A DNA stretch of 64,000 bases from Sporosarcina ureae (GTDB lineage Bacteria; Bacillota; Bacilli; Bacillales_A; Planococcaceae), in the NCBI RefSeq assembly GCF_029267015.1, contig NZ_JARIEA010000060.1, forward strand, positions 1 through 64,000, written 5' to 3'. Positions within the stretch are counted from its first letter, which is position 1. Each line of letters begins with the position of its first letter. The notes beneath the pieces were generated by a model that saw only the letters and a program-made list of their open reading frames with translations, was not told the DNA's origin and made no database searches. Position numbers and translations under genes: made by a program. Of the stretch, positions 18,681 to 33,216 are shown one piece after another.

Positions 18681-19238
18681 TTATTTACGATCTTCTACCT
18701 CAAGTTTACTACCATCGTTGAATTTGATTTCTACTTCGAATTTTTCATAATCCGCTTGAAGATCAAAAGCGTCTAGTATACGATCAATCGTTTCTTGCTG
18801 TGAGCTATCTTTGGTCACATCTAGATTTTTCACTTTTGAATATACATCATCAAATGCTTCCTGACCTTTTAAATAGATTTCATTTAGTTCATCTTCTACT
18901 TTAGCTTTTATTGGTTCATTTTCATCTTGTTCAATTTCTGCTTCATACTCTTTGTCTTTCCCGTATGAAACATCTAATTCGATCTCTTTAAATGAAAGCT
19001 TGTCCATGTCGGCTTGCATATTTCCCGTCGCCGAGTCAGTTGAAGAATCTGTTGTAGTATCTGGTACAACTTCATCAGTATTTTGATCCGTATCACCAGT
19101 AGCTGGTTCTAGCGGTTGCTCTACCGGTGGATTGGTTGCATTAGAGTTTTCTTCTACCTTATCATCTGTCGCATTCGTTCCACATCCCGCCAACGCAAGT
19201 GCCATTACTGATACTCCTGTTATTACTAAATGTTTCAT
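18681..19238 (-). CDS. YusW-like lipoprotein
   Basis: Encodes 185 residues. A lipoprotein signal ends at LAGC (about residue 19), then a Thr/Asp/Asn-rich linker of about 60 residues leads to a C-terminal domain with FKEIELDVSYGKDKEYEAEI and a tail EIKFNDGSKLEVED, matching the YusW-like family. It should be anchored on the outer face of the membrane. Function unknown. An AGGAGGA site precedes the ATG. Confidence 0.8.
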   Translation of the reverse strand: MKHLVITGVSVMALALAGCGTNATDDKVEENSNATNPPVEQPLEPATGDTDQNTDEVVPDTTTDSSTDSATGNMQADMDKLSFKEIELDVSYGKDKEYEAEIEQDENEPIKAKVEDELNEIYLKGQEAFDDVYSKVKNLDVTKDSSQQETIDRILDAFDLQADYEKFEVEIKFNDGSKLEVEDRK

Positions 19239-19352
19239 AAAAATATTCCTCCTAAACGTCGTATTATTCTTATTGTTACCCTTTTTGCTACTTTCTAATC
19301 GGTTAGTTTTATTTAATGAAGGGTATGTTGGTAAGTAAAGGAGTGTTTTCGA

Positions 19353-20252
19353 ATGAATAATCAGAATCCCTTGACTGCTAAAGAAGCAATTGATTCAATT
19401 GAGTCAGCTGTACATACGGAAAGTAGTTTGCGACGTGCGCACGCGACCGGCGTCGCATTTGATGCAACTTTTCAACCAACTGGGGCTGCAGTACCTTGGA
19501 CAACAGCTACTCATCTACAGCAAACCGAAGTTCCTGCTGTTGTACGTTTTTCTCACAGTTCTACGAGCCTAACCCCCAATGAACGTCTGAATCCAATTAA
19601 AGGAATGGCAGTGCGCTTTCAATTACCTGATGGTACATTTACAAACCTGACTATGGTTAATATACCAATCTTCATTAGTAAAACTCCAGAAGCCTTTATT
19701 CGTCTAATACAGGCATTTGATTCAAGCAGTACATGGTCACAACGAATAGATGCTCTGATGCACGATACTGAGTACAAAGCATTTGCTTCCATTTTAAAAG
19801 AGCTCCAACCGTTTCGTAATTTCGAAACCCTTCATTACTATTCTATTCATGCGTATTTTTTGAAGAATGTTGACTTAGAGAGACAAGCCGTGCGATTTGA
19901 ATGGCAACCTCTGCCTCAAAATGATTTTGATACGGAAGGCCACTCTATGGAAAATGAACTCATTCATAAAGTAGAACAAGGACGTCCTGTACGTTTTCGC
20001 TTACTTATGCAATTAGCTGAACAAGGAGATCAAACGAATGACCCCACTATCGCTTGGCCGAATGACCGAAAGAAAATTGAAGCAGGAACTCTGACACTGA
20101 ACTCTCTTCGTGCAGATAACGCAGAAGCCTTCGTTTTCGATCCAACAGTTACTATAGAAGGAATAGAATGTAGCGATGATCCGGTATTACTATTTCGCTC
20201 TGCTGCGTACGAGGAATCCGCCAAGAGACGTGGCGTAAAGAAAAAAGGTTAA
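19353..20252 (+). CDS. Catalase-like (SrpA-type) heme peroxidase
   Basis: Encodes 299 residues, the size of the small catalase-related peroxidases rather than true catalases (about 480). The distal His is in RRAHATGVAF (His30), VRFSHSS and KGMAVRFQLPDG form the heme pocket, and the proximal Tyr ligand lies in DDPVLLFRSAAYEES (Tyr286, with Arg282). These proteins use H2O2 with organic donors. No signal peptide is seen, so it is probably cytosolic. AAAGGAG precedes the ATG. Confidence 0.82.
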   Translation: MNNQNPLTAKEAIDSIESAVHTESSLRRAHATGVAFDATFQPTGAAVPWTTATHLQQTEVPAVVRFSHSSTSLTPNERLNPIKGMAVRFQLPDGTFTNLTMVNIPIFISKTPEAFIRLIQAFDSSSTWSQRIDALMHDTEYKAFASILKELQPFRNFETLHYYSIHAYFLKNVDLERQAVRFEWQPLPQNDFDTEGHSMENELIHKVEQGRPVRFRLLMQLAEQGDQTNDPTIAWPNDRKKIEAGTLTLNSLRADNAEAFVFDPTVTIEGIECSDDPVLLFRSAAYEESAKRRGVKKKG

Positions 20253-20569
20253 CAAATCTCTAAAAAATCTTAGATGAATAGTTATTATGCTGTATTCGTT
20301 TTTACTATTTTCACTAAAAATTTTTCATTAAAAAGGTTAGTGAAATGTGTTTTTTGAAGACGTGAAAGTCTATAGTCATTCAGAAAATCAAGCTCTTTCA
20401 CTATCGTCAATACAAAGCTATGCTATCCTTGATTTTTTCATTATGTTTTTGTTAAACTATTGACGTGTCAATTCAAAGAACGAACCAAACTCAAATTCCG
20501 ATATGAATAAGAACGTGTTGGCTAAGCTAGCAGAAGGGGTTGACTATTTACTACAAGGAGCTGATGTGT
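20253..20569 (+). other. 317-base intergenic region
   Basis: No supportable gene. It contains two inverted repeats: 9-bp arms at 20309-20317 and 20337-20345 (weak hairpin, possibly the catalase-like gene's terminator) and ATTGAC-GT-GTCAAT at 20459-20472, a candidate operator about 100 bases before the permease start. I see no known riboswitch motif. Confidence 0.4.
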
Positions 20570-21976
20570 ATGACAACAGAAGAAGAAAAAACATTATATA
20601 CTATAGAAGAAGAGGAAACGGAAAAGGATTATTCCTTAGATCGTGTACCTTTAGAAGACCGCACTAAAAGTTGGCTTAGCATTACGAACATCACGTTCGG
20701 GATCGCGACTGCCATCTTTTATTTTCAAATGGGCAGCGTCATGGCTTTGCAATTCGGTGCACCAAACGCTATTGTGTCCGCAATCTATGCCATAATTGTA
20801 GCGGGCTTACTCGGTACCGTGATTGCCTACTTATCGGCTAAGTCCGGGATGAATGTGAATCTATTATCACGCGGAGGCGGATTTGGCTATATCGGCTCAT
20901 CGCTAACATCATTGATTTACGCCTCAAACTTTATTATGTATTGTGCATTTGAAGGATTAATTCTTGTATCGGCTGTGCACATTTTCATGCCTGACTTTCC
21001 GAAGTGGATTTTGATTGTCGTCTTTGGGACACTTGTCATTCCCTTGAATTGGTTCGGTATTGAGCAGCTAGACAAGCTTCAAAAATGGTCTATGCCAGTG
21101 TTTCTTGTGTTTCTTGTTGCGGCTATTGTTTTATCATTTATTAAACCGGCTGTTTATACAGGTTCTGTTTTTTCGTATATGCCTGAAGGCGTAGAATTTG
21201 GTGGAACAGCATTATTGTTCTGTATCGGAATGCATAATGGAATCATGGGATTGACTGCTTTACTCGCATCAGACTATGCCCGTTTCTTAAAACCATCCGA
21301 TCGAAAATTTGGTTCAATTGCGATTGGCTTCATTCCTCAAATTTTCTGTTACGGTGTAATGGGTGGACTTGGAATTTGGTTTGGTGTACGTTTCTTGGAA
21401 AAAGATCCAGGTGTATATATCGTACTATTGCTAGGTATTGGTGGAGCTTTGTTTACGATGCTCACACAGTTACGAATTAATGTAACCAATATTTACAGCA
21501 GTTCCCTATCGCTATCAAATTTCTTCGAAAACGTATTCCGTTTCACTCCGGGACGCAGATTCTGGGTAGTCGTCTCAGCTGTAAGTGCTATATTACTGAT
21601 GCTTGGTGGAATCGTAGATCATCTAGATACGGTCATGACATTCCAGGGTGTTTTCCTATTTTCGTGGGCTGCTATTCTAGTGACGGATGCATTGGTCGTC
21701 AAAAAGTGGCTGAAAATTGGTCCGACCTATTATGTCGCTCGACAAGAGTACTTGTACAAATGGAACCCTGTCGGTGTCGCTTCGTTACTAATAGCAAGTA
21801 CATTTGGCGCCATTGCCGCTTCTGGTTATCTAGGGTTATTCCTCCAATCTACAGCTGCATTTGTCGCTGCTATACTGGCTGCTATACTGACAGTGATCAT
21901 TGCCAAGTATACAAAAGGTAAATACTATTTAGTGCGTGAACCGAATGATATTACAGCAGACGATAAATTAGGTTAA
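20570..21976 (+). CDS. NCS1-family cytosine/purine-type permease
   Basis: Encodes 468 residues and about 12 helices after an acidic N-terminal tail. The region DRTKSWLSITNITFGIATAIFYF followed by a GSV-containing helix 1 and the helix 3 motif SRGGGFGYIGSS are typical of the NCS1 nucleobase:cation symporters such as CodB and PucI. The substrate may be cytosine, a purine, hydantoin or allantoin, but no catabolic enzyme lies next to it to decide. AAGGAG lies 9 nt before the ATG at 20570. Confidence 0.82.
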   Translation: MTTEEEKTLYTIEEEETEKDYSLDRVPLEDRTKSWLSITNITFGIATAIFYFQMGSVMALQFGAPNAIVSAIYAIIVAGLLGTVIAYLSAKSGMNVNLLSRGGGFGYIGSSLTSLIYASNFIMYCAFEGLILVSAVHIFMPDFPKWILIVVFGTLVIPLNWFGIEQLDKLQKWSMPVFLVFLVAAIVLSFIKPAVYTGSVFSYMPEGVEFGGTALLFCIGMHNGIMGLTALLASDYARFLKPSDRKFGSIAIGFIPQIFCYGVMGGLGIWFGVRFLEKDPGVYIVLLLGIGGALFTMLTQLRINVTNIYSSSLSLSNFFENVFRFTPGRRFWVVVSAVSAILLMLGGIVDHLDTVMTFQGVFLFSWAAILVTDALVVKKWLKIGPTYYVARQEYLYKWNPVGVASLLIASTFGAIAASGYLGLFLQSTAAFVAAILAAILTVIIAKYTKGKYYLVREPNDITADDKLG

Positions 21977-22004
21977 TATCAAAACTCCTCTTCGTCAAAT
22001 ATAA

Positions 22005-22049
22005 AAAAACGCCTGAAGGATCAGACATGATGATCCTTCAGGCGTTTTT
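22005..22049. terminator. Strong bidirectional terminator
   Basis: A 19-bp perfect stem (22005-22023 with 22031-22049, 7-nt loop) with A and T flanks, between the convergent permease and glycosyltransferase genes. Confidence 0.93.
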
Positions 22050-23473
22050 CATTCACTATCTTCAGATAACCCTCTACGTTGAATACTTCCCCACTCACGT
22101 TTACCACGCATCGCACGAATAATTCCTTCGACACGCCAAATTAATGTCAACGGTCGATACCAAAACACTTCTGTTAATGATAAAACGACTAGACGGAATA
22201 AATCTTCTACTTTCGGGTACGTATTGCGGCTCCACGCTTCCAGCAGCACGGACGCCATGGAAAAGAGTGATCCATACAAAATGAATAATAATCCTAAGAT
22301 TCCCGCGAAAATCATATATACTTCTCCCATAAATAAAGAAAGTACCATATATGCATAGCCAGCCAGTTCAATTACGGGACCCAGTAATTCAATAAATAAG
22401 AAATATGGGATGGAGATGACACCTACAGTACCATACTTAGGATTGAAGGCCATCTTTTTGTGAAGCCAAAGACTTTCAGCCAACCCTTGATGCCAACGTC
22501 GACGTTGCGTACGTAAATCTTTGAAATTATCAGGAGCTTCTGTCCAACAGACCGGGTCTGGTGTAAAGACGATTTCTTTATCTTCTTTACGATCCGATAT
22601 TTCCTCATGAAGCTTGACTACTAGTTCCATATCTTCGCCTACTGTATTTTTAGCGTAGCCACCTACTTGTAGCACCCACTTCTTAGAAAAAACACTAAAT
22701 GCCCCTGATATGATAAGCACTAAATTGTATTTACTCAGCGCCATACGCCCCATTAGAAACGCACGCATATACTCGATAATTTGCATCATCACGATAGCTG
22801 AGCTCGGTAAACCTTCTCTAACTACTTGTCCCATTTGAATTTCATAGCCATTAGCTATCCTCACATTTCCGCCTGTCGCAATAACTTCTTTATTCGACTC
22901 CATAATCGGCTTCATGACGCGCAATAGCGACGTGCGATCCAATATGGAGTCTCCATCAATCGAACAGAAATACGGGTACTTCGATACGTTAATTCCTACG
23001 TTTAATGCATCCGCTTTCCCTCCATTAACTTTTGTAATCAACAATAAATTGGGATGCATATCCGATTGATAGATCGCCTCGATAGGTTGAGTGTCAATTT
23101 GTTGATTCACTACTTTGCGGATCGGCTTCATATTGAAATGTTCAATAACGATATCTTCTGTGTTGTCCGTTGATCCATCATTCACAACCAATATCTCGAA
23201 TTGTGGATATTGCAATGCGAGTAATGAATAGATATTGCCTAGCACACCTTCTTGCTCATTGTAAGCAGGTACGATCACAGTTACTGGCTGTGTATAGATA
23301 AAGTCTACCGCTTCTTCATCTGATAAATTCTTCTGCAACTTTCGTTCTTTTCCTAATTGAATGAATGCGATAATCAACATTGAGGTATACGAGAAAATAA
23401 CGGCTAGCATATAGACGAGTAAAATATAGCCAACGAACGCAAATACCGAAGAAGTAATTACAGGTAAATTCAT
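22049..23473 (-). CDS. Processive GT2 glycosyltransferase (PgaC/IcaA-like)
   Basis: Encodes 474 residues. One or two N-terminal helices are followed by a GT-A domain with VNDGSTDN, a DGDS metal site (SIDGDSILD), the catalytic GEDMEL motif and TQRRRWHQG (QxxRW), the set that marks processive beta-glycan synthases such as poly-N-acetylglucosamine, hyaluronan and cellulose synthases. Three or four C-terminal helices form the export channel. It is the last gene of a five-gene operon whose other members are membrane and regulatory proteins, so it probably makes the polymer of this locus. The sugar cannot be read from the sequence. Confidence 0.88.
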   Translation of the reverse strand: MNLPVITSSVFAFVGYILLVYMLAVIFSYTSMLIIAFIQLGKERKLQKNLSDEEAVDFIYTQPVTVIVPAYNEQEGVLGNIYSLLALQYPQFEILVVNDGSTDNTEDIVIEHFNMKPIRKVVNQQIDTQPIEAIYQSDMHPNLLLITKVNGGKADALNVGINVSKYPYFCSIDGDSILDRTSLLRVMKPIMESNKEVIATGGNVRIANGYEIQMGQVVREGLPSSAIVMMQIIEYMRAFLMGRMALSKYNLVLIISGAFSVFSKKWVLQVGGYAKNTVGEDMELVVKLHEEISDRKEDKEIVFTPDPVCWTEAPDNFKDLRTQRRRWHQGLAESLWLHKKMAFNPKYGTVGVISIPYFLFIELLGPVIELAGYAYMVLSLFMGEVYMIFAGILGLLFILYGSLFSMASVLLEAWSRNTYPKVEDLFRLVVLSLTEVFWYRPLTLIWRVEGIIRAMRGKREWGSIQRRGLSEDSE

Positions 23474-23477
23474 CTCA

Positions 23478-24515
23478 TTACTCCTTTCCGAACATCTCTT
23501 CTGCTACATCTATCGCGAACTCGTCGGATGACGTAGTAATGACAGAATAAAGCGCTTGTTGGCCGTTTTTTAATGACTTCATCGACTTAGCAGCTTGGGC
23601 ACGAACTTGATAGGTAGAATCCTTTATCAAATGATTGAGTACAGGTAACGCCTTTTCTGACGACACGGAACGGAAAATTTTAGCTGTCATCAAACGTTCT
23701 TCCCAAACAGTTGAACGTGAAAACCCTTCATACAACTCCAGTGCATCGGCTACTTCTAGTTCAGCTATACTCTTTAACGCGCGGATTCGTAATTCTTGTA
23801 CAGAGCTATCTAGACATTCATGCAACAACGGAAGCCACTCCAAGTAATGACGGACACCTACAATTTCAATAGTCGCCAACTGTAATACTTCAGGTAACTC
23901 ATTAAAGTCTTCAGCTAGTAAACTAATCTGTGTCTCATCCAATTCCATCAATAACTTTTTATAGTCAAATTCACCTAACGAAACTTTAGGATGGATGAAA
24001 TGCGCCATGAATTCCGTCTTGGAAAACCTTGAAATAATTTCATACATCAATATATACTCTGTTTTAGAATAGCTTTTCTTTTTTTGAAGTTGTCGTGAAA
24101 CTTTATCTAACATAAACGTTAAATTAAATAGATTAATTTTATTTAACGTATTAATACGAATTCCACTACTTCTATGGCCAAGACCTTTACTATAGTAGTC
24201 ATTCATATAATGTTCCGCGAACGCATTTACTTTGTCGTTAATTTCATCGGACGAAAAGTGATAACTAAAGCGAAAAAACAATTCATCAATAGCTTCTAAT
24301 TCCAACTGACCATTTGGTTTTAGAGAATCTATCGGCATGTCATCTCCAAGTAAATATTCATACCAGTCGACTTGACGTTCTTCGATATAACGTGTAATCC
24401 TCATTTTATTTTTCACTTCTCGTATTCTATAAAACACGAGCAAAAAGAACATCGCAAAAAGTATGAACAGCAACACAACAATCGCTACTAGCAAAGATAC
24501 TAAAAACTTATCCAT
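23478..24515 (-). CDS. Membrane-anchored HEAT-repeat-like protein
   Basis: Encodes 345 residues. A single N-terminal helix (about residues 6-28) is followed by a basic stretch and a cytosolic all-helical region; the C-terminal 100 residues show HEAT-like helical pairs (IRALKSIAELEVADALELYE, then VRAQAAKSMKSLKNGQQAL). It is probably a scaffold. The start overlaps the pseudo-receiver gene by 8 bases and the stop lies 4 bases before the glycosyltransferase, so it may link the regulator to the synthase. No enzymatic motif is present. Confidence 0.7.
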   Translation of the reverse strand: MDKFLVSLLVAIVVLLFILFAMFFLLVFYRIREVKNKMRITRYIEERQVDWYEYLLGDDMPIDSLKPNGQLELEAIDELFFRFSYHFSSDEINDKVNAFAEHYMNDYYSKGLGHRSSGIRINTLNKINLFNLTFMLDKVSRQLQKKKSYSKTEYILMYEIISRFSKTEFMAHFIHPKVSLGEFDYKKLLMELDETQISLLAEDFNELPEVLQLATIEIVGVRHYLEWLPLLHECLDSSVQELRIRALKSIAELEVADALELYEGFSRSTVWEERLMTAKIFRSVSSEKALPVLNHLIKDSTYQVRAQAAKSMKSLKNGQQALYSVITTSSDEFAIDVAEEMFGKE

Positions 24516-25353
24516 AGTAGATTCGGTTCAACACTTTTTTTATTTGCGACTCAAATAAATTTGGATTGAATGGCTTAGTGATATATTCATCTACTCCATT
24601 TTCATATGCAAAAATCATTTCTGCTTCACTTTTTCTTTTGGTCATCATAAAGACATGATATTTTTGTGTGTTCGGTAATGTACGCAATGTATACAATACT
24701 TCCAAACCGTTTTTTCTCGGCAAAATATCATTCACAATCACTACATGCATATGTGAAGATTGATACCAGTCCGATTCAATAAATGATTGTCCATCATGAA
24801 AAACTCGAATATCTAGGTCTAACTGCTTTATGGATACTCGTTCTACCAATTTTCGGATGACCATTGTAACAACAGGATCTTCATCAATAATACTCACTCG
24901 AACACATTGCCTTTCAAGTTGTCTAAACGAACGATCTTTCACATAAGGCGTATTTCCTGTAAGTGAAAGAGCGCGATGTACTGCATCGTTTCCTGTCTGT
25001 AACACTTCTTCAAGTGTCGTATCACCATTACGAATTTCAATTACTGAAACACCTACACGATAAGAGCGGTTGGATTCTGTTTTCCTCAATCTATCAATAA
25101 ATACATCCGCTTCTTCTTCACCGGTATTTGCCATCAAAATGATGTCTGGTTCACCTGTAGGGAAACTAAACAGTAGGTCAGAGTTACGCATTTGTTCAAG
25201 TAGAACTTGTTTAATGTCTGGGCTCTCCGGACTTCTCACAAACACCACTGTAAAAACTTGCCGAAAGCGTTTGGTGTTCGCCAACTGCCAATGAAAGAGC
25301 TGTTGAAAAACCGAAGCATCCAGTAAATTAAGTTCTTTAATTTTTGTTTTCAT
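24508..25353 (-). CDS. Degenerate GGDEF plus pseudo-receiver regulatory protein
   Basis: Encodes 281 residues (ATG at 25353, GAGAGGTG 8 nt upstream). Residues about 15-130 align with a nucleotide-cyclase fold: RNSDLLFSF-PTGEPDIIL occupies the place of RxSD-xxxRxGGDEF, so the GGDEF loop is TGEPD (66-70) and catalysis is unlikely; RVGVSV and LEEVLQTGNDAVHRAL match the domain's end. Residues 152-280 form a CheY-like receiver with the acidic IIDED patch, Thr238 and Lys260 at canonical spacing, but Asn208 sits where the phospho-accepting Asp should be (30 residues before the Thr). I read it as a non-enzymatic, phosphorylation-independent regulator, possibly a c-di-GMP or protein-binding module for the polysaccharide machinery. 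Confidence 0.72.
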   Translation of the reverse strand: MKTKIKELNLLDASVFQQLFHWQLANTKRFRQVFTVVFVRSPESPDIKQVLLEQMRNSDLLFSFPTGEPDIILMANTGEEEADVFIDRLRKTESNRSYRVGVSVIEIRNGDTTLEEVLQTGNDAVHRALSLTGNTPYVKDRSFRQLERQCVRVSIIDEDPVVTMVIRKLVERVSIKQLDLDIRVFHDGQSFIESDWYQSSHMHVVIVNDILPRKNGLEVLYTLRTLPNTQKYHVFMMTKRKSEAEMIFAYENGVDEYITKPFNPNLFESQIKKVLNRIYYG

Positions 25354-25385
25354 ACTCATTGCACCTCTCATCAGCAAGTTTGCTG

Positions 25386-27122
25386 TTAGAATTTCTTCAA
25401 ATACGCATTTACTTCAGGAGTAAGTGAGTCTTCCGTCATGATATAATTCAATCCACTCTCGTGATCCAATAATGGAATCAATTCTTCTTCGTATCCTGTG
25501 GTCATTCGGACTACTTTGACTAAAATATGATGAGCTTCTCCAAGTTCCTTTACCTGTTTTACTTCTGCAGATGTACTTGTACTTGGAGATTGTAAGTAGA
25601 TAATTTGTGCTGCACCATAAGCTGTAGCGAATGTTTCATATTCAGATGGTTCAAGCATCGGACCAACTAGTAAGTTGCGCTCGTGTCGCTTAGCTTGTCC
25701 ATTCGCAAATATTATCCCTTCTAACTCTTTGCCACGCTGATCTGACCCATACAATAAGCCTGTTGCCATACGCTTTATTTGTTGTTGTTTTGAACCGGCC
25801 ACGATATATATTAGACGTTTCTGTTCTTTTGCTTCTTTAATTACCTTGTATTGTTCTGTAAGCTTCATTGCATCAAGTTGAATGAAATCTATAACGCCCA
25901 TTTTTCGCAAGCGGTCTCTTTCTATTTTATCCGGCTGACAACCGACAAGCATTTTACGGCCGATCCATTCGCTCATTCCGCAATGTAAAGCAGGAGGAAG
26001 AGTACCAGTTAATGTAGTCCCCCAATCTAAATAGGATTCTAGCATTGCAATTGCGGTACTTTTCGTGAAATCATGCACATATACTTTATGGTCTACCGAT
26101 TGTACATATTCGGCTACTTTTCTAATCTCATCAAGTGTTGGTTCCTCTTTCAATGGCATATGCGTATATTTCATTTGTAGTTCTGATATTGTCTTCTGTT
26201 CCTTCGCTAACCACTCAGAATCTTGCTTATCGTTCAATAGAGAAACGACTTCTTCCACTTCACCTCGCTTAATTCGCGTGAACCATTCTTCTTCTGTTGG
26301 GTAAGGTCCCATTAGAATCGACTGATCAGGAAAATAGAATAAACTTCCTCTTTCCAATGTGGTAGGTTGTAAAAAACGAAGTTCATATAACTCATCGCCG
26401 AGCTCTTCATTTATCACTTGTTTCACTACATCGACTCGGTGTCTACCCAAATAACAATGTACATAGTATTTTTTATCATCTTGCGCAATTAATTCTTTTA
26501 CTTTTTCAATAGATTTTGTATTATCGCCGACCCAAGGTAACATTGGCAGCGAGTGAACTTCTAAATCTGCATCTTCAGCAAACTTCACTTCCTGATCCAA
26601 AAGCGGTTTTTCAATTGGAAGCGTCGGATTGAGCAATGTAATGACACCGTCGTATCCTCGTTCCTTTAAACTTATCAAATCATCTTTTTCAGGATATGGC
26701 CCGAAGGTGAATCGTTCTCCTTCTACTACTTCACCTTGAGAAGCTTGAACAATTCCTGAACCTGTGTTGAGAAAGTAATACAAGCCCGCTACTGTTAGCA
26801 TGATCGAACTAGCAGCCAACAACCAAGTTAGTAGCCAACGATTCTTCTTGACGATAAAAAAGTAGTAAAGAAATGAAACCACAAAACCAAACACTACCCA
26901 ACCGACAACAAAGTATTTCATTGCATGGTCTATTTTGAATTGGGACCAGCCACGATCTGTGAAGACTTGTTCAATGGGCACAACAGCAAATAACAAGAAG
27001 AAAATGCCGCCTCCTACACCTAGTGTGCTTAAAAAGATAAACCACAATAAGAGTTTTAAGAAAAACCGACTTTTAGGTTCATTCGACAATATCTTCACCG
27101 CTCTTTCTATCATAGGTCTCAT
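25386..27122 (-). CDS. Membrane protein with four tandem tyrosine-phosphatase-like repeats
   Basis: Encodes 578 residues. Three membrane helices (about 21-48, 71-90, 97-117) are followed by four repeats, each opening with a FxxGPxP-like strand: FTFGPYP (about 138), ILMGPYP (269), MLVGCQP (391) and LLVGPML (484). The first repeat keeps a complete HCX5R signature, VHCYLGRHR with Cys223 and Arg229. The second has VHDFTKST at that place and the third IVAGSKQQQ, so they are pseudophosphatases; the fourth has no trace. The family resembles DUF442/dual-specificity phosphatases. The start is uncertain (ATG 27122, or TTG 27089) as ribosome sites are weak and the gene overlaps the previous one. It belongs to the polysaccharide-type operon. 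Confidence 0.68.
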   Translation of the reverse strand: MRPMIERAVKILSNEPKSRFFLKLLLWFIFLSTLGVGGGIFFLLFAVVPIEQVFTDRGWSQFKIDHAMKYFVVGWVVFGFVVSFLYYFFIVKKNRWLLTWLLAASSIMLTVAGLYYFLNTGSGIVQASQGEVVEGERFTFGPYPEKDDLISLKERGYDGVITLLNPTLPIEKPLLDQEVKFAEDADLEVHSLPMLPWVGDNTKSIEKVKELIAQDDKKYYVHCYLGRHRVDVVKQVINEELGDELYELRFLQPTTLERGSLFYFPDQSILMGPYPTEEEWFTRIKRGEVEEVVSLLNDKQDSEWLAKEQKTISELQMKYTHMPLKEEPTLDEIRKVAEYVQSVDHKVYVHDFTKSTAIAMLESYLDWGTTLTGTLPPALHCGMSEWIGRKMLVGCQPDKIERDRLRKMGVIDFIQLDAMKLTEQYKVIKEAKEQKRLIYIVAGSKQQQIKRMATGLLYGSDQRGKELEGIIFANGQAKRHERNLLVGPMLEPSEYETFATAYGAAQIIYLQSPSTSTSAEVKQVKELGEAHHILVKVVRMTTGYEEELIPLLDHESGLNYIMTEDSLTPEVNAYLKKF

Positions 27123-28164
27123 CCAAAATTTCTTCCATCATCGGGAAATAGGTTAACCAATAGAAAGCCGAAACATCTTTCGCAAAGTATTTGTACACAT
27201 TGTGCATCCCTTGCCATGTAACTATCGGTTTTTTATCGAAATCTGCATAGTCTCCTGCAAAGTAATACGTGTTCGACTGCTTTTGATGCAATACAGCTGG
27301 AAAAGTTTCAGGTATGCCTGCTTCCTGCAGCACGCTACGGCCCTTTTCCGTCAAATCAAATTCGTATGTTGCGAGTACTGCAGTTTGTTCAAATGGCTCT
27401 ACCACATCAAACCAATAAATATAATCAGATGAATATACTTTGGGAAACTTTTCTTTTCCTTCTTTTGTTAACTCAAAATGAGCAGCACTTTTATTTTCCT
27501 GCCCATCCAACACAATCACTTTTCCAGATGTATGGACAAATGCAAGACCAGCACCTGCAAATAGCCATTCACTATTCATCTGCTCCTTGTACCCAGCAAT
27601 AAGCCATTGAGGTATTTCTTCATTCGCTAAATCTGTAAAGTAGCGCCCAATCCAGCCTGTCCACGTAATACCTAAATTATTTTGCATGATGGTACTCATT
27701 TCTTCACTCGTAGGTGATGCAAAACTATTAAATTCCGCTATTAATGTCGTATTTTCATCTTTACTGGCCATTAATTCGTTCCATTCCAACAACTCCATAC
27801 CACCGTATAGTAGTTCAGATCGCGAACCATCAGGACGATCTTTAAGATCATCACTGAATACACCATACGTATCCGCTACATAAATCATATCGAGCGGCCG
27901 AGTTCGAAACGGCTCCATAGCTACTTGATCGTATGGATCGAATCCATAATAATCAAGTCCGAGGTCATACAATTCTCCATCAGGTCGTACAATTTTCTTT
28001 CCTTTTAATATGTGGAATAAACCGTTGTGCTCACGATAATCCTTTTTAGCAACGGACTTATCAATTACTGCTATATCCATGATCTTTTCTTCTTTAAGTG
28101 TCCAATAAATTCGTGGCGACAAGACGAGTAAGATCAATACTAGTGCTATTACTATTTTTTTCAC
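27079..28164 (-). CDS. Membrane-anchored extracytoplasmic protein of unknown family
   Basis: Encodes 361 residues from a GTG start (AAGGAGAG 8 nt upstream). A single N-terminal helix (about residues 3-20, IVIALVLILLVLSPRIYW) anchors a large outside domain with no Cys. Conserved-looking segments are DKSVAKKDYREHNGLFHIL, DMIYVADTYGVF and LLYGGMELLEWNEL, then ITWTGWIGRYFTDL. I do not recognise the family; the tone of these motifs (ADTYG, YGG, EFNSF) recalls carbohydrate-active folds, which is only an impression. It heads the operon with the phosphatase-like, pseudo-receiver, HEAT and GT2 genes. Confidence 0.75.
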   Translation of the reverse strand: MKKIVIALVLILLVLSPRIYWTLKEEKIMDIAVIDKSVAKKDYREHNGLFHILKGKKIVRPDGELYDLGLDYYGFDPYDQVAMEPFRTRPLDMIYVADTYGVFSDDLKDRPDGSRSELLYGGMELLEWNELMASKDENTTLIAEFNSFASPTSEEMSTIMQNNLGITWTGWIGRYFTDLANEEIPQWLIAGYKEQMNSEWLFAGAGLAFVHTSGKVIVLDGQENKSAAHFELTKEGKEKFPKVYSSDYIYWFDVVEPFEQTAVLATYEFDLTEKGRSVLQEAGIPETFPAVLHQKQSNTYYFAGDYADFDKKPIVTWQGMHNVYKYFAKDVSAFYWLTYFPMMEEILDETYDRKSGEDIVE

Positions 28165-28192
28165 TATCTGGTCTCTCCTTTACTCTTGTCGA

Positions 28193-28227
28193 CTGTTGTC
28201 TGTTGTCTGTTGTCTGTTGTCTTTTGT
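28193..28227 (-). repeat. Heptanucleotide tandem repeat in the operon leader
   Basis: Four perfect copies of CTGTTGT (28193-28220) plus one variant CTTTTGT (28221-28227); on the transcribed strand ACAACAG. They lie between the sigma-A promoter (28251-28279) and the ribosome binding site of the first operon gene, in the untranslated leader, where copy-number change would alter leader length without touching a reading frame. Confidence 0.85.
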
Positions 28228-28250
28228 CTTTTAAATACTCTTCTAGTATT

Positions 28251-28279
28251 ATTATATCACCTACTATTCTAGTATACAA
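28251..28279 (-). promoter_or_regulatory. Sigma-A promoter of the polysaccharide-type operon
   Basis: Minus strand: TTGTAT (28279-28274), 17 nt, TATAAT (28256-28251). About 90 bases of leader separate it from the GTG start at 28164. Confidence 0.75.
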
Positions 28280-28408
28280 TTATATTTTACATATCTTTAG
28301 TCTTAATATACTATGTCACTTTACATAAGTTAGTGTATAATACACCTGTAGGACTATTAGATTATGATATTCTACTCTATCTTAAGTTTCTAGAGAAAGG
28401 TGACTACT

Positions 28409-29293
28409 ATGTCGAAAAAAGTACGACTTATTTGGATGGCGGCGATTTTATTGGTTCTATCTAACTTCATTTGGTTGAAACCTATACTAACTATGCGCGT
28501 TGACCAACCAAAAACTACTTGGCTGTGGCACACATCGCAAATACTTGATCAATCCGATACGATCATTGAATTTATGGATAAAAAGAATGTATCGACACTC
28601 TATTTACAAGTCAATGCAGACATTCCAGACGAAGTGTATCAAGACTTCATTCGTAAAGCTAGCGAGCAGAATATAGAAGTGCATGCACTAGATGGTGCAC
28701 CGCATTGGACGACTGATCAAAAGTCGGTTCAACAGTTCTTCCGTTGGGTGGAGAAATATCAATCTGTTTCAGGTAAAACCGAACAATTTGCAGGTATCCA
28801 CTTAGACATCGAACCGTATATTTTGCCTGTCTGGAACTCTAATTTACAGGAGACCATCGAAAGCTATCAGCAAAATATTCGATTAGCAGCTGGTGAGTCC
28901 GCTCTTCTTGATTTACATTTTGGAATCGATATACCATTTTGGTTCGACAAGACATTCTATTCGAATTCGATGGGTGAAGGTGTTTTATCCGAATGGCTAA
29001 TTGATCAATCCGACAGTATCAACGTCATGGCTTACCGTAACAAGGCAAAAGGACGTAACGGAATGATTAGTTTAGCGCAAAGTGAAATGGACTACGCCAG
29101 TGCTACCGGCAAACAGGCACGGGTAGCCATAGAAACAAGTAAATCTTCTGAAGGCGATTATTTATCTTTCTTCGATAAGAATAATGCGTATATGGAAAAA
29201 CAACTAAAAGAAGTAGAGCGATCTTTTAATCACTCTGAAGAATTCCGTGGAATTGCTGTTCATTCGCTAGAAAGTTGGATGAAACGCAAATAA
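28409..29293 (+). CDS. Secreted or anchored TIM-barrel glycosidase-like protein
   Basis: Encodes 294 residues. An N-terminal hydrophobic helix (about residues 6-24) serves as signal or anchor. The rest looks like a (beta/alpha)8 barrel: VSTLYLQVNADIP, EVHALDGAPHW, then GIHLDIEPY with a D-x-E pair at a strand end as in GH18-like active sites, HFGIDIPFWF, INVMAYRNK and the closing FRGIAVHSLESW. It diverges from the GT2 operon, so trimming or processing of the same polymer is a reasonable guess. GAAAGGTGA lies 5 nt before the ATG. Confidence 0.65.
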   Translation: MSKKVRLIWMAAILLVLSNFIWLKPILTMRVDQPKTTWLWHTSQILDQSDTIIEFMDKKNVSTLYLQVNADIPDEVYQDFIRKASEQNIEVHALDGAPHWTTDQKSVQQFFRWVEKYQSVSGKTEQFAGIHLDIEPYILPVWNSNLQETIESYQQNIRLAAGESALLDLHFGIDIPFWFDKTFYSNSMGEGVLSEWLIDQSDSINVMAYRNKAKGRNGMISLAQSEMDYASATGKQARVAIETSKSSEGDYLSFFDKNNAYMEKQLKEVERSFNHSEEFRGIAVHSLESWMKRK

Positions 29294-29307
29294 CAGATAA
29301 GTACAAC

Positions 29308-29341
29308 AAAAGGCCGTCTCTATCAAATGAGACGGCCTTTT
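29308..29341. terminator. Bidirectional terminator
   Basis: A 13-bp GC-rich stem (29308-29320 with 29329-29341) with A and T flanks between the glycosidase-like gene and the convergent flavin reductase. Confidence 0.9.
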
Positions 29342-29365
29342 TGTATACGTTTAGTGTATGAGTAA

Positions 29366-29878
29366 TTAAGCTTTATTATCTTGATCATAAAATACTGGTG
29401 GTACAGAACCAAACACTCTACGATGATATAACATAGGATCTTTATTTTTCTCTACTTTTAAATCAATTACTTCGCCGATAAGGATTGTATGATCTCCTGC
29501 TTCAATCGTTTGGAAAGTCTTACATTCAAAAACACCGAATGCGTCTTCAATAATCGGTAATCCGTTATCCGACATTTCCCATTCACATGTAGAGAAACGA
29601 TCTTCTACACGGCTCGCAAATGTGCTACACAGTTCTTTTTGATCTCCCGCAAGTACATGTACAGCGAATTTACCACCTTCTGTGAATGCTTTGATAGATG
29701 AAACTCTATGATCTATAGACCATAAGAGAAGCATTGGATCCAAGGATACAGAAGCAAACGAGTTTACTGTCAATCCTACAGGCGTGCCATCTTCAGTTAC
29801 TGCAGTAACTACTGTTACACCAGTGGGGTAATTCCCCATAATCTCTTTGAATAAATTCTGTTGCTCTTCTTTTTTCAT
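29366..29878 (-). CDS. Flavin reductase-domain protein (HpaC-like), copy 1
   Basis: Encodes 170 residues of a flavin reductase-like split-barrel domain: MGNYPTGVTVVTA, LTVNSFASVSLDP, the GDHTILIGEV motif with the conserved His, and a C-terminal MLYHRRVFG. Such proteins make free FADH2/FMNH2 for flavin-dependent monooxygenases. It is very similar along its whole length to the protein at 43173-43676, but no monooxygenase lies beside it. An in-cell backup partner for the HpaB-like enzyme at 43790 is possible. Confidence 0.87.
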   Translation of the reverse strand: MKKEEQQNLFKEIMGNYPTGVTVVTAVTEDGTPVGLTVNSFASVSLDPMLLLWSIDHRVSSIKAFTEGGKFAVHVLAGDQKELCSTFASRVEDRFSTCEWEMSDNGLPIIEDAFGVFECKTFQTIEAGDHTILIGEVIDLKVEKNKDPMLYHRRVFGSVPPVFYDQDNKA

Positions 29879-30090
29879 GAAACATTCTCTCCTTTATTGA
29901 TGAGCCATTTCGAGTAATTTATATAGTCCATTTCTCTAGAAATAGGCAAGTCTATATATATCATAGCACTTCCACTATCTTTCTTCATTTTTCTCAACTC
30001 GTTGTATGTTTTTCTTTCAGCTTATGCGATGCATTCACTTTGTACCATGCTACTTTATTGCCTGTCACTTTAAAGGTACTAAAGCTTTAT

Positions 30091-30113
30091 TTTATAAACC
30101 ACATGTTTATAAA
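30091..30113 (+). promoter_or_regulatory. Inverted repeat upstream of the acidic lipoprotein gene
   Basis: TTTATAAAC and GTTTATAAA, 9-bp perfect arms with a 5-nt centre, 63 bases before the start at 30176. It is AT-rich and could be an operator; no T run follows, so it is not a terminator. The rest of the 297-base gap shows nothing I can name. Confidence 0.4.
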
Positions 30114-30175
30114 TACTAAATTCGGCTATTATAACCGTAGCAAGTCTATCAAACAATTCTAGGAGGATACGTATA

Positions 30176-30400
30176 ATGAATCTAACTACTCTCAAGAAAA
30201 ACAACTTATTCAAAGTGGGAGCAGCGGCAATTCTCTCTGTCGGCGTCCTCAGTGCATGCGGTGACGATGACCCGGTTATTGATGAAAACGATGATGTTGA
30301 CGTAGAAGTAGATCAGCCAGGCGATGTTACACCAAATGATGATGCAGATATGGATGAGCCTGAAGTAGACATGGAACCAGACGATGAAAACAAAGACTAA
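30176..30400 (+). CDS. Small highly acidic lipoprotein, 74 aa
   Basis: An AGGAGGAT site precedes the ATG. The signal peptide (LFKVGAAAILSVGVLSAC) ends in an LSAC lipobox; the mature part is almost only Asp, Glu, Val and Pro (for example DENDDVDVEVDQPGDV) with no predicted fold. It would sit on the outer face of the membrane as a polyanionic tail and could bind divalent cations. A terminator follows. Function unknown. Confidence 0.8.
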   Translation: MNLTTLKKNNLFKVGAAAILSVGVLSACGDDDPVIDENDDVDVEVDQPGDVTPNDDADMDEPEVDMEPDDENKD

Positions 30401-30430
30401 TAAAAAACAATAAATAGTAGAAGCTTAAAA

Positions 30431-30466
30431 TCCCTGAAATCAATTAAAGTATTTCAGGGGTTTTTT
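30431..30466 (+). terminator. Intrinsic terminator of the lipoprotein gene
   Basis: CCCTGAAAT pairs with ATTTCAGGG (30432-30440 with 30451-30459), followed by GTTTTTT. Confidence 0.85.
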
Positions 30467-30619
30467 CTTCCTACTTCTATTTAACTGAATTTTCAGTCCT
30501 TTAAAATGTTTTATTTACAAAAAGTTATATTACGTATAATCTCTAGACATTCATCACAACATGATATGTAGGAGTGCTATTGGTAAAATATGAAAGTCTT
30601 ATACAAGGAGGAGAATACC

Positions 30620-31453
30620 GTGACAGAACACAGACCGCATGAGGATACACAAAAAGGTATTAGTCGTAGAAATTTCATTAAAAATACCGGCTTAGTGGCG
30701 GGAGGTCTAGTTGGTGGATCATTATTTGGTGGTCTATTGACTAACCAGCTACAAAAACCAGATGCACCTATTAACTCAGAAAAAGAAGGCAGCCACTTAT
30801 TGGAAGCACGTACGTTCTTTAGTAATAGCGAAGATTTTCTTATCCTATCTGCTGCTACTGAAAGGTTATTTCCTACAGACGATTTAGGGCCAGGCGCTAT
30901 TGAACTAGGTGTCCCCTACTTTATCGACCGACAGCTAGCTGGCGAATGGGGAATGAATGCAAAAGAATATATGAAAGGTCCGTTTTTGCAGGCAGGTGTG
31001 GTAGACGCATATGAAAGCCAAGCAGATTCGACCCAAGACCAAGGTCCAAATGCCGAAACGCAAGTACCTACACCAGCCTTTAGATATCAGACACCTATGA
31101 CAAGGGGAGATATTTTCATGGAAGGCGTAAAAGCATTGGAACAAACCGCACAGGAGAAATTCGAAACAAACTTCCGTAAGCTAGAGCCGAAACAGCAAGA
31201 TGAGATTTTGCAGATGTTTGACGATGGTAAAGCGAAGATGAACGGTGTCGCTTCGACGACATTCTTTAATCTATTATTACAAACAACTATTGAAGGTGCT
31301 TATGCTGACCCCGTCTATGGTGGGAATCGCAATATGGAAGGCTGGAGGATGAAAGAATTCCCCGGTCCACGTATGAGCTATACAGCGGATATAGAAAAAG
31401 AAGACTTCATCGTAATGAAACCTGAAAGCTTACGAAATTACCAAGGTCATTAA
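30620..31453 (+). CDS. Gluconate 2-dehydrogenase subunit 3-family protein (Tat signal)
   Basis: Encodes 277 residues from a GTG with AAGGAGGAG 6 nt upstream. The N-terminus carries a textbook Tat motif, SRRNFIK, followed by a hydrophobic Gly-rich helix. The mature part contains LSAATERLFPTDDLGPGAIELGVPYFIDRQL, typical of the small subunit of membrane-bound GMC dehydrogenases. It lies 17 bases before the flavoprotein gene and should export that subunit by hitchhiking, since the flavoprotein has no signal of its own. Confidence 0.88.
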   Translation: MTEHRPHEDTQKGISRRNFIKNTGLVAGGLVGGSLFGGLLTNQLQKPDAPINSEKEGSHLLEARTFFSNSEDFLILSAATERLFPTDDLGPGAIELGVPYFIDRQLAGEWGMNAKEYMKGPFLQAGVVDAYESQADSTQDQGPNAETQVPTPAFRYQTPMTRGDIFMEGVKALEQTAQEKFETNFRKLEPKQQDEILQMFDDGKAKMNGVASTTFFNLLLQTTIEGAYADPVYGGNRNMEGWRMKEFPGPRMSYTADIEKEDFIVMKPESLRNYQGH

Positions 31454-31470
31454 AAACAGGAGGAACTCAT

Positions 31471-33216
31471 ATGGTAAAAAAATTAAAAAAGGTAGATGTA
31501 GTCGTAGTAGGAAGCGGCTGGGCAGGTGGAGTAGTTTCTGCAGAGCTGGCCAAGGCCGGATACCAGGTAGTAACGCTTGAACGAGGTAAAAAACAAGATC
31601 GACAAGACTATATAGGAGTTAAAGATGAATTGCGTTATACAGATCGTTACGAAATGATGCAAAACTTATCTCCTGAAACGATTACTTCACGCGTGAAAAT
31701 TGAAGATACCGCTCTCCCTGTCCGAACAAGAGCAGAAATGATGGCTGGGACCGATCTAGGTGGGGGTAGTGTCCACTGGGCAGGTGCTACATATCGCTGG
31801 AGAGCTATCGATTTTGAATTGCGTTCCAAAACTATTGAAAGGTATGGTAAAGAGAAAATTCCTGAAGGCATGACGATTCAAGACTGGGGTATTACATATG
31901 ATGAAATGGAACCTTATTACGATAAGTGGGAGAAAACCGCTGGAATTTCAGGCGAGCCCGATCCACTTGGTGACAAGCGTTCAAGTGATTACCCTAACCC
32001 GCCTATGTTAGCATCACCAGCTGTAAAATTATTCAAAGAAACGACTGAGAGGATGGGTTATCACCCTTTCCAAGTCGCTGCCGGTAACTTATCACAAGCG
32101 TATACTAATCCAGACGGTGAAAAATTAAATGCATGTATGTTCTGCTCTTATTGTACGATGTACGGTTGTGATTTTACGGCTAAATCGGACCCATTGGCTA
32201 CAGTTATTCCGACTGCACGCAAAACCGGAAACTGCGAAATACGCACTAATTCTTTAGTACGTCGAGTTCTGCATAAAGACGGTAAGGCAACCGGTGTTAT
32301 GTTTACTGATACACGTACAGGAATTGAATATGAGCAGCCAGCAGACGTCGTCGTATTAGGTGCATTTTCATTTACTAATAATCGTTTATTGATGCTTTCA
32401 GAAATCGGAAAACAATATGATCCAGCCACACGTAAAGGAACCATTGGCCGCAACTTTAATGGACAATTCAACATCACATTCCTTGGAGCGCGAGGCTACT
32501 TTGAAAATAAAAAGTTTAATCTCTACATGGGAGCAGGTGCTCTGGGTGGTACTTTGAGTGACTTTGCTGGTGATAATTTTGATCACTCTAATGTAGACTT
32601 CATCAACGGTGGCGGTATCGAAATGCGTCAATACGGTGATGGGGCTATTTCTACAAACCACGTCCCAAGCGGCACACCAAAGTGGGGACCTGAGTTCAAG
32701 AAAAACTCAATCCATTATGCGAATCGTTCACTAGTCGCATGGTATACACCTGCTGTTATGTCATGGTGGCATAACTACGTAGATTTGGATCCAACATACA
32801 AAGATGAATACGGAGATCCCCTATTACGTATAACGAATCGTTACACAGATCACGATCGAAATATGGCGAAATTCGGAATCGAGAAATGTAGTGAAATCAT
32901 GAAAGAAATGGGTGCCGATATCATTGACGAGGATGAAGTGCCTGAAGAGTTCGATCATATCTATTCAGGTGGTCACTACGCAGGCGGAATAATTATGGGG
33001 GCGGATCCTGAAACATCTGCAGTGAATAACTACCTTCAAATGTGGGAGATGGATAACTTATTCGTAGTGGGTGGTTCCGCATTTCCTCAATTCGGTGGAC
33101 ATCATCCGACTTCAACCATTGGCGCATTGGCTTATCGTGCAGCAGAAGGTGTAGAGAAGTATTTAAAAGAAGGTGGTCAGCTTGCAGAAGCGAAGCAAGG
33201 GACTTTAAACGCATAA
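31471..33216 (+). CDS. GMC-family oxidoreductase, flavoprotein subunit
   Basis: Encodes 581 residues. The FAD-binding dinucleotide fold is VVVVGSGWAGGVVSAELAKAG with the acidic end ERG; GTDLGGGSVHWAGATYRW and the C-terminal FVVGGSAFPQFGGHHPTSTIGALAYRAA are diagnostic of the GMC/gluconate 2-dehydrogenase group. It oxidises a polyol, sugar acid or similar alcohol at the membrane face. No cytochrome c subunit is encoded nearby, so electrons may go directly to menaquinone or to an unlinked cytochrome. Substrate unknown. Confidence 0.88.
   Translation: MVKKLKKVDVVVVGSGWAGGVVSAELAKAGYQVVTLERGKKQDRQDYIGVKDELRYTDRYEMMQNLSPETITSRVKIEDTALPVRTRAEMMAGTDLGGGSVHWAGATYRWRAIDFELRSKTIERYGKEKIPEGMTIQDWGITYDEMEPYYDKWEKTAGISGEPDPLGDKRSSDYPNPPMLASPAVKLFKETTERMGYHPFQVAAGNLSQAYTNPDGEKLNACMFCSYCTMYGCDFTAKSDPLATVIPTARKTGNCEIRTNSLVRRVLHKDGKATGVMFTDTRTGIEYEQPADVVVLGAFSFTNNRLLMLSEIGKQYDPATRKGTIGRNFNGQFNITFLGARGYFENKKFNLYMGAGALGGTLSDFAGDNFDHSNVDFINGGGIEMRQYGDGAISTNHVPSGTPKWGPEFKKNSIHYANRSLVAWYTPAVMSWWHNYVDLDPTYKDEYGDPLLRITNRYTDHDRNMAKFGIEKCSEIMKEMGADIIDEDEVPEEFDHIYSGGHYAGGIIMGADPETSAVNNYLQMWEMDNLFVVGGSAFPQFGGHHPTSTIGALAYRAAEGVEKYLKEGGQLAEAKQGTLNA

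Follow-up and report, generated by a model that had tools for sequence, protein, structure and literature searches.

A GT2 synthase operon of Sporosarcina ureae with a degenerate GGDEF protein predicted to be a receptor for cyclic di-GMP

We describe here a set of six genes in a stretch of 64,000 nucleotides of Sporosarcina ureae DNA (NCBI RefSeq assembly GCF_029267015.1, contig NZ_JARIEA010000060.1, positions 1 to 64,000), which as a whole is called the window; the host genome is of 3.1 Mb. An earlier reading of the letters alone, referred to as the original prediction, had placed a polysaccharide or envelope system at this locus, and its six genes are real. They encode a family 2 glycosyltransferase (GT2), a HEAT-like protein (HEAT), a GGDEF/receiver protein of 289 residues (REC), and proteins of 578, 361 and 297 residues (P578, P361 and GH297). 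Five genes lie on the minus strand in the order P361, P578, REC, HEAT, GT2, with overlaps or gaps of less than 10 bp, and all five reading frames are intact. To the original prediction we add a reading of the 289-residue protein, which is best read as a predicted receptor for cyclic di-GMP (c-di-GMP) that would drive the polysaccharide synthase. The features of the locus, in window positions, are these:

22004..22050, minus strand: terminator-like hairpin closing the five-gene unit, with a 20-pair stem and a T run
22049..23473, minus strand: GT2, processive glycosyltransferase of 474 residues with several transmembrane (TM) segments; PF00535, 1.5e-22
23478..24515, minus strand: HEAT, 345 residues, one N-terminal TM segment and a HEAT solenoid predicted to be cytoplasmic; HEAT_2, 1.3e-8
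24508..25377, minus strand: REC, 289 residues, a degenerate GGDEF domain (residues ~17-145) and a pseudo-receiver (residues ~161-277), no TM segment; predicted c-di-GMP receptor
24730..24732, minus strand: Asn216 of REC at the receiver phospho-acceptor position; Asp in 29 intact cyclases
25090..25092, minus strand: R96 of REC, third residue of the predicted inhibitory-site (I-site) triad; kept in 92% of 39 degenerate homologues
25177..25188, minus strand: I-site motif R64-N-S-D67 of REC; among the 39 degenerate homologues the D is kept in 100%, the R in 95%
25386..27122, minus strand: P578, 578 residues, three N-terminal TM segments and four repeats like those of dual-specificity and protein tyrosine phosphatases (DSP/PTP), predicted outside the membrane; accessory
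26436..26459, minus strand: HCX5R motif H222-R229 in repeat 1 of P578; H222, C223 and R229 invariant in 10 of 10
27079..28164, minus strand: P361, N-anchored, predicted extracytoplasmic, 361 residues; matches the N-terminal third of P361–glycosidase fusions of ~1060 residues
28165..28399, no strand: P361–GH297 intergenic stretch, presumably a divergent promoter region, with promoter-like sites in both directions
28400..29293, plus strand: GH297, N-anchored, glycosidase-like, 297 residues, divergent; D136, E138 and E245 invariant in 14 of 14

The claim that the locus forms one transcript fits the five minus-strand genes, which end at the terminator-like hairpin, but not the glycosidase-like gene GH297; because this is divergent, on the plus strand, it lies outside the five-gene transcript and is a separate transcription unit. 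A promoter scan of the region as a whole gave 21 promoter-like sites against a shuffle mean of 23.9, no excess over shuffles. In an Rfam scan of positions 19000-32000 no family reached its gathering score, and no c-di-GMP riboswitch of a described family was seen there. Five genes are under purifying selection: the ratio of nonsynonymous to synonymous substitution rates (dN/dS) is 0.02-0.111 for five genes compared with locus L051, and 0.074 and 0.115 for two genes compared with L040, with dS in these pairs at 1.2-2.8 and thus near saturation; nine more pairs, including the only one for P578, were saturated.

A contig scan gave 394 P361 relatives in 483 candidate stretches, of which the best 80 loci were kept. 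A frequent order in these is a receiver–GGDEF–receiver protein (REC-GGDEF-REC, ~540 residues) or a shorter degenerate form (~290), HEAT (~350), GT2 (~470) and a protein of ~1060 residues. Scatter of the partners away from the GT2 gene, which would speak against a system, is not what the HEAT genes show: each of the 67 in the 80 loci is followed on the same strand by a GT2 of this kind. The gene directly upstream is a GGDEF/receiver gene for 59 of them; a same-strand neighbour is present for 66, and seven of these neighbours are of another kind. In 20 further loci picked by hand, two of which are from the family of the window (L166, L169) and one of which (L165) repeats L054, HEAT adjoins GT2 in every case, on the same strand in 19, and the GGDEF/receiver gene is directly beside the pair in 17. 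The conserved unit is GGDEF/receiver–HEAT–GT2 together with a glycosidase, widespread in Bacillales, and the six-protein set of the window is a local form of it. P578 is accessory and occurs in only 4 of 61 genus genomes. Among 200 genomes of the family, P361 is found in 92 and HEAT in 101 (both 91, P361 only 1, HEAT only 10, neither 98). The corresponding figures for 398 genomes of the class are both 59, P361 only 7, HEAT only 41 and neither 291; the cut-offs for the two markers differ (1e-3 with a single sequence for P361, 1e-10 with a profile for HEAT), and several of the 41 HEAT-only genomes match over the C-terminal ~120 positions only.

The description of the 289-residue protein as a degenerate GGDEF/pseudo-receiver protein is borne out. 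Its receiver domain is matched at 3.7e-14, and the GGDEF origin of its N-terminal half is indicated by hhalign (98.0%, E 2.6e-13, a single comparison) and by the PDB entry DosC (3e-7); it has neither the GGDEF catalytic motif nor the receiver phospho-Asp. Homologues were taken from 79 aligned proteins, less seven in which the neighbour of HEAT is not a GGDEF/receiver protein, and the resulting 72 include five duplicates or near-duplicates. A GGDEF-type motif is kept in 29 of them; the other 43 were scored as not active, and of these L099, L100, L126 and L128, in which the I-site region is missing, were left out, to give 39. At the phospho-acceptor position, 38 of the 72 have Asp, 29 Asn, 4 Glu and 1 Ser. 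The Glu that replaces the phospho-Asp in L062, L063, L066 and L068 may mimic the phosphorylated state; the clade of the window has Asn. Judged by its sequence, the 289-residue protein is a descendant of the REC-GGDEF-REC cyclase of the operon.

The RxxD motif of the I-site is retained in 37 of the 39 degenerate homologues and in 25 of the 29 intact ones. In a conservation ranking of the 159 columns of the GGDEF domain, the 39 degenerate proteins place the R, the D and the R that lies 32 residues after the first R at 2nd, 1st and 4th; for the 29 intact cyclases the places are 38th, 30th and 58th. In the 34 degenerate proteins left after removal of duplicates and near-duplicates they come 3rd, 1st and 4th. 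Eight catalytic-site columns, ranked 1st-38th in the intact cyclases, fall to 64th or lower in the degenerate proteins. This shift in rank of the I-site columns is a stronger argument than the plain retention of RxxD. An alternative is that the machine is the one set out below and that its sensor is deaf to c-di-GMP, a structural subunit whose only role is to tie HEAT to GT2. Such a role would suit a sensor that has lost both its catalytic and its phospho site, as that of the window has, and an I-site that is common in intact cyclases as well; however, a structural domain has no evident reason to hold R, D and R at so much higher ranks than the intact cyclases do, and we think this alternative unlikely.

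Receptors of a comparable kind have been described. PelD of Bacillus cereus, encoded in the pelDEADAFG operon, binds c-di-GMP via R363, D366 and R395, as reported from isothermal titration calorimetry and alanine variants, and these residues have the same spacing as R64, D67 and R96 of the window protein (PMC7112168). YdaK of Bacillus subtilis reportedly depends on its I-site residue Arg202 both to bind c-di-GMP and to contact its cyclase (PMC7064775). The window protein has the sequence traits of such receptors, a GGDEF fold without the catalytic motif and an RxxD with a downstream Arg. The likeness to Gram-positive Pel extends to a degenerate GGDEF receptor with an I-site, a membrane-anchored solenoid, a synthase, a glycosidase and an outer protein. 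PelE is a TPR-type solenoid. The analogy is close, and a pel identity was nevertheless rejected: there is no PelF, PelG or PelA relative in the window, and no protein is shared with the pel-like locus L179, where the best E with the window queries was 0.13, one HEAT relative reached 0.007 and no profile matched up to E 10. The pel label of L179 is given from its gene layout and one DUF2334 match. This pel-like operon (L179 478-11640) lies in a genome of the window's family, G165, that also has a window-type module.

The ydaJKLMN operon of B. subtilis likewise combines a GT2 synthase, a degenerate GGDEF receptor that uses its I-site and a glycosidase (PMC13274460, PMC7064775). YdaK, however, has TM segments (PMC7064775), whereas the window protein has none and carries a pseudo-receiver. 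A yda identity was rejected too, as the genome of the window has no match to DUF2334 (YdaL, PF10096) and its six genes have neither DUF2334 nor BcsB. The GT2 is 21-25% identical over 269-288 residues to its counterparts in four yda-type loci, L192-L195, which are so labelled from their layout and the domains of L194 (DUF2334, BcsB). HEAT, P361, P578, REC and GH297 of the window gave no match in these four loci at E 1e-3, and the intact-cyclase relatives match yda GGDEF proteins weakly, at 1e-4 to 8e-7. The equation of P361 with YdaJ, REC with YdaK and P578 with YdaL was considered since the lengths agree, and was ruled out because no sequence match was found. A yda-type operon (L192 2950-9983) is present in G019, a genome of the same genus that gave no match to P361 or to HEAT. 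With pga/ica, for poly-N-acetylglucosamine (PNAG), and bcs, for cellulose, the window has the GT2 superfamily in common, but its six genes have no deacetylase or PilZ match. The pga/ica and bcs synthases are known to be under c-di-GMP control, and the Listeria pss system is yda-like in composition. The latter provides a c-di-GMP-induced exopolysaccharide in a Firmicute (PMC4125290). That the partners are foreign to known pga/ica, pel and bcs operons, as had been claimed, agrees with the comparisons made here: none is shared with the one pel-like and four yda-type loci, and the PgaC and CelA cut-offs are missed. We read the window receptor as one that would work like PelD and YdaK, yet belongs to neither pel nor yda.

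The GT2 is, as predicted, of the processive kind. DGD, GED and QRRRW (D173/D175, E280-D281 and Q323-R324-R326-W327) are invariant in 22 of 22 aligned relatives; we take these to be the DxD, TED/GED and QxxRW signature of processive synthases, and they are accompanied by the several TM segments. The best NCBIfam match, PgaC_IcaA, scores 137.2 bits against a cut-off of 422.3, which does not make the protein a PNAG synthase, and the CelA model scores 37.9 bits against 699.1, which, with no PilZ match in the six genes, does not make it a cellulose synthase. The anchored HEAT-like protein is also confirmed, with its single TM segment at residues 9-27 followed by six K/R residues, as judged by simple hydropathy.

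P361 had been described as an anchored outside protein of unknown family. It has indeed no convincing match in Pfam, NCBIfam or PDB, and Pfam searches with 40 P361 members and 20 members of the glycosidase half gave scattered weak matches only; the description needs correction in that P361 aligns to the first ~360 residues of the ~1060-residue protein, and the window P361 is, from this alignment, the N-terminal part of that glycosidase fusion standing alone. Of the P361 proteins of the 80 loci, 63 are fused and 20 stand alone. The rest of the ~1060-residue protein is conserved, with E176 (GxEW) and E326 (AEFG) invariant in 20 of 20. Its matches to the glycoside hydrolase (GH) family GH113 are single and weak (0.0015 and 0.013), and the GH half has no PDB match; under the criteria that we presume to define clan GH-A, it reads as a clan GH-A-like retaining glycosidase. 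Seven same-genus genomes with a stand-alone P361 (G001, G024, G030, G044, G047, G055, G187) have at least one further copy with an open frame of 1042-1079 residues. In the genome of the window the second P361–glycosidase gene is broken into frames of 317 and 560 residues, with part of the middle apparently missing:

G000:C81:76136-77047 and beyond (L047 7413-10066): broken second P361–glycosidase copy

In L041 6970-17822 (G165), one REC-HEAT-GT2 set has around it three P361 copies, of which one is fused to the GH half and two stand alone, and P578 comes after the second stand-alone copy. A tandem repeat of ~7-bp units, GTCTGTT on the plus strand, was spotted by eye at 28190-28222 of the window, just upstream of the P361 ribosome-binding site; it could slip and so tune expression.

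Relatives of GH297 lie in 14 of the 80 loci. The GH297 profile matches the PDB entry 10yv_A with E=1.2e-23 over positions 47-293 of 295; this homologue is an actinobacterial protein entitled 'Putative GH97 from Cellulomonas fimi'. A second, divergent GT2-HEAT-P361/GH locus in G044 (L046 5212-15292) has an extra GH protein of 744 residues, and here the GH297 domain is tandemly duplicated inside one protein of 578 residues.

For P578, the proposed membrane protein with four phosphatase-like repeats is upheld. In single hhalign comparisons the repeats match one another with E 8.5e-12 (R1-R2), 1.5e-8 (R2-R4), 6e-8 (R3-R4), 7e-7 (R2-R3), 5.6e-6 (R1-R4) and 0.001 (R1-R3, probability 21%); the last match being weak, repeat 3 is tied to repeat 1 via the others. 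The HCX5R motif that marks DSP/PTP phosphatases is found in repeat 1 only, as had been stated, and in 3 of 10 relatives an Asn or Gly takes the place of D200, the likely general-acid Asp. In the fetched loci, 15 of 15 P578 relatives, which represent 12 distinct loci (L006=L061, L007=L055, L165=L054), come directly after a stand-alone P361 and none after a fusion. A first contig scan with P578 alone gave no relative, and plasmid records gave no match; among the class genomes P578 is present in 5 of 398, each also with P361 and HEAT. On the GT2 tree its presence changes at least nine times. In the sister strain L051/L038 (one strain) the gap between P361 and REC holds a piece of the P578 3' end, with a score of 41 against 24 for the best of 200 shuffles; in L039 the remnant is weaker (29 against 27), and the same gap in L052, L053 and L040 has none. 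From the remnant in the sister strain, the ancestor most likely had P578 and the gene was then deleted.

This deletion, together with the broken gene on G000:C81 and the frequency of genomes without P361 and HEAT among the same-genus genomes listed, could suggest that the window copy is itself decaying, its GH half lost, its second P361-GH copy broken and its cyclase dead. Decay would, however, scarcely leave dN/dS at 0.02-0.115 wherever dS is finite, nor all five minus-strand frames intact, and the same five-gene order is repeated in L005, L006 and L007; we regard it as very improbable.

The explanation that we favour, and hold to be rather probable, is that the locus encodes a synthase-dependent polysaccharide machine under c-di-GMP control. 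The GT2 would polymerise sugar from nucleotide-sugar precursors and thread the chain through the membrane, and the membrane-anchored HEAT protein would be a cytoplasmic scaffold that joins it to the sensor. This sensor, a former diguanylate cyclase, would bind at R64, D67 and R96 the c-di-GMP made by other cyclases of the cell, and binding would switch the GT2 on through HEAT. There are 11 GGDEF matches elsewhere in the genome, the window gene not being one of them, so that c-di-GMP is probably available. On the outer side, the emerging chain would be received or presented by P361 and, in loci that have it, P578. Glycosidases, which most of the 80 loci encode as fusions with P361, would trim the chain; in the window, the divergent GH297 would be the glycosidase at hand.

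Several observations weigh against this explanation. Retention of RxxD could by itself be inheritance, because intact cyclases keep the motif too. The placing of L063 among the 37 proteins that retain it rests on a poor alignment, the degenerate L064 and L065 have K in place of the I-site R, and the alignment of the degenerate domains could be drawn by the I-site residues themselves. The available DNA of 12 of the 80 P361 loci holds no such GT2; in G217, the one such genome inspected, the HEAT-GT2 pair is on a different contig from P361. P361 has no recognisable fold, the GH half is missing from the window operon, and the other copy of P361-GH in the genome is broken. The GT2, so far under the PgaC and CelA cut-offs, could make a glycolipid or a wall decoration. 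A different explanation starts from this last point: the product would be a glycolipid or a secondary wall or teichoic-acid decoration, and P361 and P578 would handle a phosphate-bearing wall polymer outside. The invariant HCX5R anion-binding loop of P578, predicted outside the membrane, would suit such a polymer, and there is no exporter among the six genes. Processive GT2 synthases, though, export their own chain, and the GT2 has the motifs and several TM segments of these enzymes; glycosidase-like partners, moreover, are regular. We therefore consider a glycolipid or wall product quite unlikely, and polysaccharide remains the product that we would expect.

The sensor can also be viewed across the operon as a whole. 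The GT2 tree is 'quick' and unrooted; it leaves out five duplicate or near-duplicate loci, has long branches (L151, L155 and L122 among them) and gives its deep nodes weak support. On it, the active or inactive state of the sensor changes at least three times. The inactive rows form four groups, namely the window clade, L054/L056, L062/L063/L066/L068 and L064/L065, which means four losses if regain is excluded. The window clade is not purely Planococcaceae, with records under the names Lentibacillus, Heyndrickxia, Siminovitchia and Bacillus among its members, and the intact GGDEF motif is kept in some genomes of the window's family (L049). We give even chances to a broader reading, taken with all its parts, in which within one widespread operon a diguanylate cyclase repeatedly became, in place, the receptor of its own product. 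A unit with an intact receiver-bearing cyclase beside the synthase could make local c-di-GMP. In the window clade (Sporosarcina, Lysinibacillus and Ureibacillus, with the Lentibacillus, Heyndrickxia and Siminovitchia records) and in others, the protein would have lost its active site, and in many cases its phospho site as well, while the I-site gained stronger relative constraint, and the synthase would now listen to the c-di-GMP pool of the cell. Several lineages would also have dropped the outer glycosidase half and replaced it with the extracytoplasmic four-repeat pseudophosphatase.

If these readings are true, Bacillales have a further widespread c-di-GMP-controlled exopolysaccharide machine besides pel and yda, and, with GGDEF proteins both intact and degenerate occurring naturally in one genetic setting, it becomes directly testable how an enzyme that makes a signal turns into a receptor. 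No description of the operon, or of the families of the HEAT partner, P361 and P578, was found in the searched literature, beyond the reach of which subscription papers mostly lie. The operon is present in Anoxybacillus (L089, L114, L130); the genome paper on Anoxybacillus flavithermus emphasises c-di-GMP and biofilm, in passages that do not mention the operon (PMC2614493). The P361 marker occurs in records named Bacillus, Priestia, Lysinibacillus, Planococcus, Paenibacillus, Anoxybacillus and Sporosarcina, among others, and the named relatives at 84-91% identity are Sporosarcina. A locus of the Bacillales type is also carried by L122, the title of which is that of a Patescibacteria metagenome-assembled genome, and by L102, entitled Arthrobacter beigongshangensis; these records are possibly mislabelled or contaminated.

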